Of a stretch of 32,774 nt of DNA, positions 9,443 to 32,774 are shown piece by piece; the stretch's first letter is position 1; the number at the start of each line of letters is the position of its first letter. The DNA comes from an uncultured Ureaplasma sp. GTDB lineage: Bacteria; Bacillota_I; Bacilli_A; Mycoplasmatales; Mycoplasmoidaceae. Below the pieces are notes generated by a model, which saw only the letters and a list, made by a program, of their open reading frames with translations, was not told where the DNA came from and did not search any database. The DNA is taken from the NCBI GenBank assembly GCA_947039545.1, contig CAMQZA010000006.1:1-32774 (forward strand). Reading direction: 5' to 3'. Made by a program: the position numbers and the translations under genes.

Positions 9443-9688
9443 ATGGCTAATATTCAATCTAATATAAAAAGACATAATCAAGATGAAAAAAAGCGATTTC
9501 TAAATCATTCTAAAAATTCTGAAATGAGAACTGCTATTAAAAAAAATAAAGCAAATCCAACAGAAGAAAATTTGGTTAAAATATATTCATTAGTTGATAA
9601 AGGTGCTAAAAATAACCGGATTCATAAAAATAAAGCTAATAGAATTAAATCAAGAAATAGCAAATTATTAAATCAAATAAATAACTAA
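9443..9688 (+). CDS. rpsT: 30S ribosomal protein S20
   Basis: S20 binds 16S rRNA helices at the base of the small subunit. The 81-residue product begins MANIQSNIKRHNQDEKKR, the usual S20 N-terminus, and continues AIKKNKANPTEENLVKIYSLVDKGAKNNRIHKNKANRIKSR (cited in part) with the family's conserved end. The ATG at 9443 has AAGGA just upstream; an earlier TTG at 9428 would overlap this site and was not chosen. It includes a CGG codon (in NNRI), so CGG is read here. Monocistronic, with its own terminator. Confidence 0.96.
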   Translation: MANIQSNIKRHNQDEKKRFLNHSKNSEMRTAIKKNKANPTEENLVKIYSLVDKGAKNNRIHKNKANRIKSRNSKLLNQINN

Positions 9689-9924: not shown

Positions 9925-11088
9925 TTATCCTGATATTTTTTGAGCTCATTTTTGTTCATGATTTTTTCTAAATGAAACTATTTTTTGAGTTAATTCATTA
10001 CTAAAATTAGTTGCTCTTGCATTTAATGCATCTAAATTAACTGAATTTTGTTTAAAAGCAGCTGCTTTTCTTAATTCAACAGTTAATGCTTGTTGAGCGA
10101 TAGAAATTTGTTGTTTTCCAATAGATTCATTATTAGCTAAAATAGCAGCTGTTTCTCTTTTAGCAAATTCTCTAAGAATAAAAGCTCTTAATTCTAAATC
10201 AGCAATATCATTAAATTTTTCTAAAACAATAATAGATGCTGGATTTGCAATTTTAGCATCAGTATTTTTAGCAATAACTGTTGAATAAGGAGTTCTAGCA
10301 TAGTTTTTACCAGCTTGATCAACAAGAACTAGTGGAATTTGATTTAATGGTTGTTCTGGTAAAGAAACTAAATTAGGTAAATCAGAAACATCAATTTTTA
10401 CTCATTCAGCATTTGCATTATTATCAGAAATAAATTTTCTAATTTCATTAATATAAATGTTTTGACTAGTTAAATCATTTTTTTCAATATTACTTACAAC
10501 ACTTAATAATTTTTTAACTTGAACATCATGAATTTGTGCAAATTTTGCTTTTTGCATTTCAGCTTTTGCTGGATCTTTTGAAGCTAATGCAACAATTTTA
10601 TTTTGAGCATCTTGATATTTAAGAGCATCAGTTTTTTGTTGTTTTGCAAAGAAATCTAAAGCTTTAGCATGATTGTTAAATCTATTTTCTCTAATTTTTT
10701 GAATTGAAGCAGATTTTCTTTTTAAAACATCTAGTTTTCTACTTACTTTTTTAAATTCGTTTTGTGCTTTTGAAGTTAAAACACCAGCAGCAAAATCATA
10801 AGTTCTAATAGCATTTGCAATACTTTCAGGTTTATGTTCATTAACAATAACTAAAGTTGAAATATCAGATTTAAGATCAGATGGTCCAAAACATAAAAGT
10901 GGTAATACACCAGTTCTTGTTGAATCATCTCTTGTAGGTTGTCCACCTGGTACAAAAGAAGGGATTATCATTTGTTCTTGAGTTTTTAATGAAACACCTA
11001 TTTCATCAATACATTTAATTAAATCAATTTTACTTTTAACAACTGGTTGGTTGTTAGCAGGCATATTCATATTTTGTTCATTAGCCAT
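9925..11088 (-). CDS. Unrecognised 387-residue soluble Ala/Lys/Gln-rich protein
   Basis: I do not recognise a family. The product begins MANEQNMNMPANNQPVVK; there is no signal peptide, lipobox or membrane helix. An ordered-looking first part (IIPSFVPGGQPTRDD, VLPLLCFGPSDLKSDIS, LVIVNEHKPESIANAIRTYD) is followed by long helical, probably coiled-coil segments (about 105-215: KKVSRKLDVLKRKSASIQKI, HAKALDFFAKQQKTDALKY), a Pro-containing linker (VSLPEQPLNQIPLVLVDQAG) and a second Ala-rich helical part to the end KWAQKISG. Two Trp (both TGA). The amino-acid make-up is much less Asn/Ile-driven than the neighbours, as in abundant, selected proteins. Single gene, strong AGGAGA site and its own terminator suggest high expression; a structural or cytoskeletal role is only a guess. 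Confidence 0.85.
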
Positions 11089-11173
11089 TATTTTTCTCCT
11101 ATTTTATATTTTAATAATATTTATATATTAACATAAAAAATAAAAAAGAATTAATATTTTATCTAATTTTTTT
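11089..11173 (-). promoter_or_regulatory. Promoter region of the 387-residue unknown gene
   Basis: 85 bp between the sufB stop and this gene, both on the minus strand. It contains T-rich tracts directly after the sufB stop and TAATAT/TATAAA hexamers closer to the gene, any of which could be a -10. No clear sufB hairpin terminator is visible, so read-through from suf is possible. Confidence 0.35.
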
Positions 11174-16245: not shown

Positions 16246-19200
16246 ATGACTAAAAAAATTAAAAAATGATCATTGGGAGCTACGGGTTTATCTGTTGCTT
16301 TAGGATCTATTCTTTTTTTATCTAGTTGTGGGTCAGGTGTATCAAGTGCAATTGTTGATCAACAAGTTAGTACTGGTGATGGTAATATTTTTTATACAAG
16401 TGGTAATTCAAGTGAGAATAATCTATCAAATATTTCTAAACAATCTTTATCAACAGTAACTGGTATGGATACTTGAATTAATTCATTAGGTGATGAATTT
16501 ATTTATTCTTGATTTAAAAATATTGTAAATGCTGAAAACATTAGTACAAAATGAGAAGATTGAACTACTTCAACAGATGAATTATGAGATGCTAAAATAG
16601 AAGATTATAATGCAAGACACGGTTCTGATGCTCCTTATTTTATTCAAAATGAATTACTTTCACCATTTGGTGGAAATATTGAAGATTGAAAAAAATCTCA
16701 AATTATTACATTAGCTAATACTGAATTTACATCTCTAATTCAAAAAGATTATATATATTTATCAACAGCTAGTAATAAAAAAAATCCAACTGAATTAGAA
16801 ATTAATAATCCAATTAATATAAACGGTACAACAGCAGTAGGTACTAGTAATAATTTTGTTTTTGGAGCTGAAGCTTTAAATAGTAATGAAATTGGTAATA
16901 TTGAAAGAGGAATAGCTGATTTTAAAGAATTTATCTTTGATGAATATGTAAGAAATGAAATGCCTTATTTAACTTCAATGTCTTTATATAAACATCAAGC
17001 AGCTATGAATTCATCTTCTGAATCAAAATGATTTGATGTTAATAAAATTCAAGATTTTAACAAAGGACAAGTTAATCCTATTCCAGTTGAATCAAATTAT
17101 GCTTGACAAGTTTATGAAGAACCGAGTATTTCAACAGTTAATGGCGTTAATGCTTCTCAAAAATATTTAAATTTAGTTCCGCAATTAGTTGATGGCAAAT
17201 TTTTAAATAGCACTGCTGGTGGAAGTATTGACATTCCTTATAATAATGGTGAATATACTGATGATTCTGCTACTTCTTTTTTAGTGACTAAAAAAACAGC
17301 TTTCGATAGTTTATTTTTACCTTTTGCTTCAGCTGGCAACTATAAATTAAATAATGTTTTATATAATAAAACTGATCTAAATGTAACAACAGCTGATTCT
17401 ATAAATACAACAAGTATTATGGGTAATTTTTTAACAAACACAACTAGAAATGGTGCTTTTGCTTTACCAACAGAAATTGCTTCTTCATTAATAGGAGAAT
17501 ATGCTGGAATGACTCATATTTCTGATACTGTTGATTTAGGTGCTAATTCTCCATTTATTTTATCAAGAAATGAAGCTGGTGTTCATATTATGGGTATCGA
17601 TAGATATCAAGCGATGACAGCAGCAAATACTGCTCTTGGTTTTGATGGTGTTATTGAAGAAATGAAAAATACCTTAAAATGAAGACATGTTCAGACTAGA
17701 GAAGGTTTTAATAAAAGTGGATTAACTTCTGAAAGTTTTGATTTAAATAATTTAATAAATAGCTATTTTTCAACAAATAAAAATAGTTTATTGGTTAAAT
17801 ATATTATTGAAAAAGGAATAAATTTACCACCAGAATTACCTCCTAATGGTAATGTATTTTTGTTTTCAAAAGAAATAAGTAATATTGATAGAGATCAAGG
17901 TGTTGCTGAAAATCAATTATTATTACCTAATGAATCTCCTTTAGCTATTGCAATTTTAGGTGCAAAACAAGAACAATCTTGAAAAGATGTAAATGATAGT
18001 ATTAAAACAAAATTATATGCTGCTCAAGATGCTTATATAAATAAGTATTCACTTCCAAACTTTTTTAATGAAAATGATTCAACTATTAGTAATGGAATAG
18101 CTGGAATGTTACCTTATACAAGAAATATAGATAATGGTAATTATGATAGTATCGGTTATTTTAATACATTAAACACAGAAACTAATACTTGAAGTTTTAA
18201 TGACCTTAAATATAAAAAATTAGTTAGTGATGTTAATCCTTTAGCTAATACTTATATTGATGGATTAAGCTTAGATAAACAAAAATTAGATCCTTTTTAT
18301 GGAACTTATAATCAAAACATATTAACTAATAATGAATTAATTAACAAAACAATAAATTCAGTAATTGGTACTGATATTTCTAATGATATTATTATTTCAA
18401 AAATAGAAGCTGAAATAGCTCCTATTTATGATGCAAAAAAGAACGAATTTGTAACTAATAATCCTGGTGGCGGTACTCCTGCTACTAGACCGATTGCTAC
18501 TACATCACCTTCTGAAGCTACTAATTATATTAATAGTCAAATTGCTAATATTTTTCAAAAACAATATATATTAAAAAAATATATAACTGATAATCCTAAT
18601 TTATATAGTGATGGAAATTGAAATAATTATCCTGAGCTTTTAACTAAAGCTGTTAATGATCATAATACAAATATTACTAAAAATCAAGCTGGTGAAATTA
18701 TTATAAATTCTTCTGAAAGAAAATCTTTATACCAGTTTATTTTAACAATTCAATATGCCCTTGGTTGAAATTCTGAAACTAAAACTTATACATTTGAACC
18801 TTATAAAAATTATTTAAAAAATAATACTTTAAATAATGCTAAAGCTTCTTATATATGATTAGATTCTGATTATGCAGATATTGTTTCAGGATATGGAACT
18901 AATTTAATTAAAGATTTTGCTTTTGTTCAAAATCCTATAGCTTTAACTAAATATTCAAATACATACGGATATCAAGGTCAAACACCGCCAACAGTAACTA
19001 GTAATAAATTTAATGTTGATAATACAACATTAACAAATGATACTAATTATTTTAATGTTGTAAAACCTACAAATCAATCTACAGATGATTATACTGGTTT
19101 TTATGGTTTGCAATTTGAAAGTAATAATAATTTGCCTTCTTATATTTCAACAGCAATTTTTGATAATTCATTACTGACTGGTAATGCCACTGGAACAGTA

Positions 19201-19776
19201 AAAAATAGTGGTACTTTATATAACTATGAAAATAGAACTAATATAGTAAATACTATTAAAACAATTAATAATTTTAGTTCTTTGGAAGTATTTACAAATG
19301 AATTAGTTATAAATTTTAATATTGACACAAAACCAATATTTGATGCTAAAACTCTTGAAGAACAAAAAGAGGCATTAACAATTCAAGTTGAAGATATTAA
19401 TATTATTCCTGATGTTGCTTTTGAAGTTGTTTTAAATAAACAAATTTTAAATTCTGAAGCTACATCATCTAGTAATAAATTTTTTGGATCACCTACTGAT
19501 CAAAATACTCAAATTGTTTTAACTCAATTTAATAATTCAGATGTTAATAAAGCATTTAGTGAAAGTGGAATTAATTGAGCTATTCCTAATTTATTAAATT
19601 CAAGTGATGAAGCTTTCTTTTGAGGATTAGTTGATTTTGCAAACAATAATACATCTCTTCAAGGTGAAGCGTTTAATAATATGGTTGTTAATCAAGGAAA
19701 AGTTGTTGTTTATGATGTTAGATTAAATAATTCACTTGGTAGTGGTTTAGTAAACGATTTCAAACGACCTAGATAA
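16246..19776 (+). CDS. Large surface lipoprotein (1176 residues)
   Basis: A lipoprotein signal peptide is clear: MTKKIKKWSLGATGL, a hydrophobic core and lipobox LSSC with Cys28. After it the sequence is Ser/Thr/Asn-rich with many TGA Trp codons, as in exposed mollicute proteins. Residues about 90-170 (STDELWDAKIEDYNAR, FIQNELLSPFGGNIEDWKKS) resemble the N-terminal helices of PrsA/SurA-type chaperones, and AGVHIMGIDRYQ near residue 450 recalls the end of a parvulin domain; this is a weak impression, not a call. Pro/Gly linker near 750 (NNPGGGTPATRPIATT). No internal repeats seen. GAGG site before the ATG at 16246. Adhesin or large secreted chaperone are both possible. Confidence 0.9.
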
Positions 19777-31879: not shown

Positions 31880-32774
31880 TTAATCTTCCTGATTTTTTTT
31901 AATTCAACAAAAATAACAAATTTGTTTGTCGTTATTTAAAGATATTGTTTGAGAAAATAATTTTATTTTTTTACATTTTAAACATTCTTTCGGTTCAGAT
32001 GAACTAACTTTATATTTTTTTCATATTTTCTTTTTTAATGAAAAATCATACGAATCAATTTCATCTTCCATAAAAGTCATTATTTTAATTTGATCTATAT
32101 TTTCATCATCATATTTGATAACTTTTTCAATATTATCTCAATCAATTTCATTGATTTTACTGATATCAAAAATCTTTGTTTTTTTTATTTGTGGTTTTTT
32201 TAAATTTGTTAAAGTATAAAAATTATTAATAATAGGCAAAGAAATTTGTAATGGATAAGAAATTTTTGGAATAGAAACATCAACATTTAAATTTGTTACT
32301 GATAAAAATTTATCAGTAATTATTTCAGAATCATTATCAATATATAGTTCATTAATAATTTCTTTTTTAAATGATTTTTCTATCGTTTCAGTTATTTTAG
32401 AATTATTGAAAATAGAATAAGTTGAAATCTTATCATTAAAAGAAATAGTTAATTTAAAATTATTTATTATTGAATATGTTTGGAATGAATTATTTATTTT
32501 TTTAGGAATATCAATATTTTTATCAACTATCTCATTATTAGAGATTATTGAATATGTTTGAAATGAATTATTTATTTTTTTAGGAATATCAATATTTTTA
32601 CTAACTAATTTTTTATTAATTATTTCATTATTAGAGATTATTGAATATGTTTGGAATGAATTATTCATTTTTTTAGGAATATCAATATTTTTAATAACTA
32701 ATTTTTTATTAATTATTTGATTATTAGAGATTATTGAATATGTTTGGAATGAATTATTCATTTTTTTAGGAATA
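31880..32774 (-). CDS. Tandem-repeat protein with C-terminal zinc-ribbon-like motif (5' end outside window)
   Basis: I do not recognise a family. The visible 298 codons begin inside a repeat array built on MNNSFQTYSIISNN and KNIDIPKK, followed by one diverged copy, a middle part with TYSI- and ISLPIINN-like segments, an acidic stretch (IDWDNIEKVIKYDDENID, MEDEIDSYDFSLKKK; Trp by TGA) and the end CLKC-x18-CYFCW. The paired CxxC motifs look like a treble-clef or zinc-ribbon site. No membrane segment is seen in the visible part. The frame is open to the right edge (IPKK before the first visible Met), so the true start lies beyond it. Confidence 0.75.
32464..32774 (-). repeat. 31-residue (93-bp) in-frame tandem repeats
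   Basis: Units at 32669-32761 and 32576-32668 are 31 codons each and almost identical; 32498-32575 is a shortened unit of 26 codons (the segment INKKLVS is reduced to VD, a 15-bp loss); 32464-32497 is a partial fourth. The array continues beyond the window. Near identity at the DNA level indicates recent copying and likely length variation between strains. Confidence 0.9.

Follow-up and report, generated by a model that had tools for sequence, protein, structure and literature searches.

A shortened, codon-adapted member of a genus-level helical protein family in an uncultured Ureaplasma sp.: a candidate internal scaffold protein

Most of what is known about the mollicute cytoskeleton comes from the Mycoplasma pneumoniae group and from M. 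mobile. MPN387 of M. pneumoniae is a cytoplasmic, non-enzymatic protein of about 358 aa with a helical coiled-coil shape. It has been placed at the bowl complex, and its mutants are reported to be unable to glide, while HMW1, HMW2 and P200 are large, lineage-specific, coiled-coil or disordered cytadherence proteins that build the internal core (PMC4923136). Here we consider P0001, a protein of 387 residues encoded within a contig of an uncultured Ureaplasma sp.; the whole stretch of DNA that was analysed, 32,774 nt, is referred to below as the window. P0001 is of similar size to MPN387 and, by prediction, likewise helical, cytoplasmic and non-enzymatic, but the two have no sequence relation, and the profile of the P0001 family has no match among the genomes of g7, the genus that bears EAGR boxes and that presumably includes the M. 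pneumoniae group. The same profile gives no sequence match to HMW1, HMW2 or P200. Moreover, the EAGR box (PF16713), which marks several of the M. pneumoniae cytadherence proteins, is confined to g7, with no match in the window's genome or in any genome of its genus (g1) or of the sister genus (g8), and an EAGR-type organelle protein was thus rejected as the identity of P0001. By analogy, P0001 may work like the core proteins of the EAGR set, though it stands outside that set.

The gene is read with the mollicute code (NCBI code 4), under which two in-frame TGA codons become Trp229 and Trp381; under table 11 the frame is interrupted at TGA. Code 4 also reads through the window's S10 operon, lepA, fmt, the suf genes, miaB and uvrB, and the host is therefore a mollicute in which TGA encodes tryptophan. 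A counterpart 92-93% identical to P0001 occupies the corresponding position in another, independent assembly, also an uncultured "Ureaplasma sp." metagenome-assembled genome (the sister genome, G003), so that the reading frame of 387 residues given in the preliminary description is confirmed. Its strong ribosome-binding site and strong terminator were also borne out (Table 1): the leader containing AGGAG is identical in the sister genome, and in the terminator stem one base pair has been altered there on both sides with pairing kept. The hairpin is symmetrical and could thus serve both strands. The accompanying claim that the gene is monocistronic stands only in part. Separate transcription from sufB is likely, but sufB, encoded on the same strand, ends just 85 nt before the gene, and a promoter search, which returned 17 candidates against 20 expected, found none above chance for P0001. 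At the edge of the window, a protein that by position and sequence is ribosomal protein L29 carries a long repeat tail and runs off the contig.

Table 1. Positions of P0001, its parts and the other features discussed (window coordinates unless a locus is named)
Feature	Position	Strand	Remarks
P0001 gene	9925..11088	(-)	387 aa, helix-rich, short member of a scaffold-like, lineage-specific family; code 4
P0001 N-terminal module, residues 1-175	10564..11088	(-)	homology with the N-termini of the long forms (983-1351 aa)
P0001 C-terminal module, residues 176-387	9928..10563	(-)	homology with the C-terminal part of the long forms
Ribosome-binding site	11096..11100	(-)	sequence AGGAG; 7 nt before the P0001 ATG
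Terminator hairpin of P0001	9865..9912	(-)	AT-rich, flanking A/T runs; -12.5 kcal/mol, z=-4.9
rpsT (S20)	9443..9688	(+)	convergent neighbour of P0001
Ribosomal protein L29	1-540	(-)	Lys/Val/Glu-rich repeat tail 'KVEKETKVIKKPAVEKIA'
Lipoprotein-like protein	16246-19776	(+)	1176 aa, LSSCGS motif; between sufC and miaB
Repeat protein	31880..32773	(-)	~93-bp tandem units 'NNSFQTYSIISNNEI...'; C-terminal CxxC-CYFCW domain; cut by contig end
g8 long forms with Cas9-type HNH domain (G012/G021)	L010:8632-12687; L011:8390-12436	(+); (+)	HNH at residues ~455-609
g11 two-gene locus (companion + helical protein)	L042:6001-8175; L079; L080; L081; L091; L093; L092		in G015, G109, G102, G101, G106, G103, G104

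The preliminary description recognised no family for P0001, and for public families this remains so: the best E values were 0.15 in Pfam, 0.029 in PHROGs and 0.45 against PDB sequences, and NCBIfam gave no match. Among genomes of the same lineage, on the other hand, relatives of 983-1351 aa do exist. When related genomes were searched with the single sequence, the four weak matches to P0001 were the ends of much larger proteins. A profile built exclusively from six such long forms recovers P0001 with E=1e-18 in two collinear domains, residues 18-145 (i-E 4.3e-9) and 197-381 (i-E 2.1e-9), and matches none of the other 277 ORFs of the window genome and none of 500 shuffles. Pairwise comparisons agree, with shuffle z values of 8-15 for the N-terminal module against the long forms of G005, G012 and G021, and of 9.1 for the C-terminal module against that of G004. 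Compared with each other for internal duplication, the two modules give an hhalign E of 0.05.

The family is narrowly distributed. Of 320 genomes in the order, it is present in 8, representing 2 of 50 genera (6 of 6 in the window's genus and both of the 2 in the sister genus), always in single copy, and its profile matches nothing in the other genera of Mycoplasmoidaceae or elsewhere in those 320 genomes. Within the genus, identity is about 20%. The long forms are found in G001, G002, G004 and G005 of the window's genus and in both genomes of the sister genus, and the 387-aa form only in the window species and its closest sister. The helical middle of about 600 residues that distinguishes the long forms is absent from P0001 and was not found elsewhere in either of the two assemblies with the short form; P0001 is thus a short variant of the long-form family. 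Taken together, these comparisons identify P0001, at the level of sequence, as the shortened orthologue of a single-copy, genus-level helical family, in which the end modules have been kept and the middle has been lost. Gene order is conserved on one side. In the window the family gene is followed by rpsT on the opposite strand, a yajC-like gene and fmt; in G012 and G021 the same series is found with two dehydrogenase genes between the family gene and rpsT. The common rpsT-yajC-fmt order is most simply explained if these are the same locus.

Some long forms have additions that P0001 does not share. Those of the sister genus (G012, G021) carry an acidic tail and a Cas9-type HNH domain (TIGR01865, E 1.3e-21; PDB Cas9, E 2.6e-12). 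At the positions that the alignment assigns to the active site of Cas9 HNH, the catalytic Asn is replaced by His in both genomes and the catalytic His by Tyr in G021, so that the domain is probably dead. No other or full Cas9 was found in either genome; Cas9 does occur elsewhere in four genomes of the window's genus. The long form of G004 has instead a CxxC/CYFCW domain at its N-terminus, and the same domain forms the C-terminus of the repeat protein at the far end of the window (local score 110, against a shuffle maximum of 69). That the two proteins have this domain in common hints that the repeat protein and P0001 act together, and the repeat protein is possibly a functional partner of P0001.

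A second candidate for a partner is a small companion gene beside trxB, which adjoins the long form in all six genomes that have one and whose N-terminal domain is conserved ('DAKALGIVEG..Q.VFIDG..V.V.FVDE'). An AlphaFold2 (AF2) model of the companion has a pLDDT of 55 and a fold that is not interpretable. The trxB/companion side of the locus is not kept in the sister genome, where a 150-aa companion sits on another contig at L043:7463-7915, and the incomplete assembly of the window's own genome yielded no companion gene. The companion domain is also present in most g11 genomes, beside trxB or udk; where the contig extends far enough, a 430-800-aa helical protein comes next, giving a two-gene locus with a 'DAxxLGI' N-terminal domain. 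These g11 proteins resemble the P0001 family in the type of locus, in which udk or trxB, the companion and the helical protein stand in series, and in an 'IVI' strand motif that precedes a long helix, but profile-profile comparison (hhalign) gives E values of just 0.02-0.7; the evidence is suggestive of a distant relationship with P0001.

The preliminary description had supposed P0001 to be abundant, and the comparison with ribosomal codon usage that it proposed supports high expression. With nine ribosomal genes as reference, P0001 ranks first among the 278 ORFs with a minimum length of 150 aa sampled from 418 of the 640 kb of the window's genome, with a CAI of 0.851 (mean 0.722, sd 0.047), a value that mainly reflects avoidance of G/C-ending codons, since ribosomal codon usage is much like that of the genome as a whole. 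Against genome-average synonymous usage for the same protein, its codon adaptation has a z of 4.3. Moreover, dS between the window species and its sister is 0.179 for P0001, near the 0.13 of rplC (L3), and 0.30-0.56 for eight other neighbours. First rank in CAI together with a low, ribosomal-like dS points to strong translation of P0001. The long forms are equal to or slightly above their own neighbours in codon adaptation and not clearly more adapted, so that high expression is supported for the short form only. From the same pair of species, a dN/dS of 0.24 places P0001 under purifying selection. (Among the genes compared with the sister, the highest dN/dS, 0.31, belongs to the lipoprotein-like protein.) These values bear on the notion that P0001 is the decaying remnant of a large protein and has no important function. 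The absence of some 600 residues found in every other member except that of the closest sister is what such decay would leave, but a clean reading frame in two species, the dN/dS, the leader and terminator conserved between them and the highest codon adaptation in the sampled genome all speak for a maintained gene; codon usage and dS already contradict decay, and we regard it as very improbable.

The composition of P0001 had been described as far less biased to Asn and Ile than that of its neighbours. This is correct for Ile, which at 8.5% falls near the bottom of the 6.8-21.9% span of the window genes, and Ala at 10.9% is the top value among them, but Asn, also 8.5%, is merely average for the window. 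The N-terminus (MANEQNMNMPANNQ) is hydrophilic and, judged by eye, bears no export signal, as had been stated. Helix richness is likewise borne out by an AF2 model built from eight sequences, which is of moderate quality (mean pLDDT 67, pTM 0.51) and predicts three long helices of 85, 54 and 89 residues at 87-171, 173-226 and 298-386 (pLDDT 70-95), with the N-terminus and a linker at 244-290 disordered. The first of these helices lies in the N-terminal module; the C-terminal module holds the last, along with an 'I[I/V]VL[E/D]KF' motif. The likely coiled coils of the preliminary description were not confirmed: heptad periodicity is not significant in the helices, and helical periodicity is significant only in the first, with a period of 3.6 instead of 3.5 (p=0.04), and absent in the other two. 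For this reason we term P0001 helical and not coiled-coil; it is not necessarily a coiled coil of the classical kind.

Foldseek returned no match to the P0001 model at E<=0.001 (best 0.027), and the profile and structure searches that had been called for gave no significant match to a known enzyme family; neither the model nor the sequence has an enzyme-like fold or catalytic motif. A shell-like role, which had been among the suggestions, finds no backing, in that neither a jelly-roll nor a BMC or HK97 fold is seen in the model and tblastn found no match in 50,697 phages, 72,556 plasmids or viral contigs. A phage or plasmid origin is rejected by the same tblastn result, and a known enzyme or shell family by Pfam, NCBIfam, PHROGs, PDB and Foldseek alike. 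The top weak Foldseek matches are designed helix bundles and ciliary and SMC-type coiled coils, the latter including MukB, Smc and JetC. These last, with a net charge of +12 and the presence in ~1350-aa relatives of a Cas9-type HNH domain, a nucleic-acid-binding fold, might suggest an abundant SMC-like, nucleoid-associated or ribosome-associated helical protein that acts on nucleic acid and is not a scaffold. We consider this unlikely, as none of the coiled-coil matches has an E value as low as 0.02, neither an ATPase head nor a hinge or DNA-binding family is present in P0001 or in the long forms of its genus, and the HNH domain is limited to the sister genus and has lost catalytic residues. 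Quite unlikely, too, is the idea that P0001, as a helical adaptor or chaperone-like protein, attends client proteins and bears no load: helices with disordered arms, a single-copy, abundant protein and a companion beside trxB in most relatives would all fit, but P0001 resembles no known chaperone or prefoldin-like family, and divergence to about 20% identity within a genus is unusual for chaperones.

The reading that we favour, and hold to be probable, is that P0001 has a structural and not an enzymatic role, as an abundant cytoplasmic protein that serves either as an internal scaffold or as a cytoskeletal rod. It is suggested by the predicted helical fold, the indications of high expression, the strong ribosome-binding site and terminator, the lack of a catalytic motif, fast change under purifying selection and a change of length through the tolerated loss of a 600-residue middle. 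In such a role the helices of P0001 would pack as a bundle or rod that self-associates or binds a partner, and the cell would use the mass of the protein and not catalysis. In most relatives, the family protein would work with the adjoining companion beside trxB. A broader and rather doubtful extension is that in this branch, which is without EAGR-type terminal organelles, a fast-evolving internal scaffold of two parts, the helical rod and the trxB-side companion, gives the cell its architecture, the rod having shrunk to 387 aa in one subclade while a dead Cas9 HNH domain was captured as a building block in another. In any case, a helical family that is highly expressed, conserved and unnamed offers a direct candidate for the structural core of this related branch, and the length series within it, from 387 to 1351 aa, shows which of its parts are dispensable.
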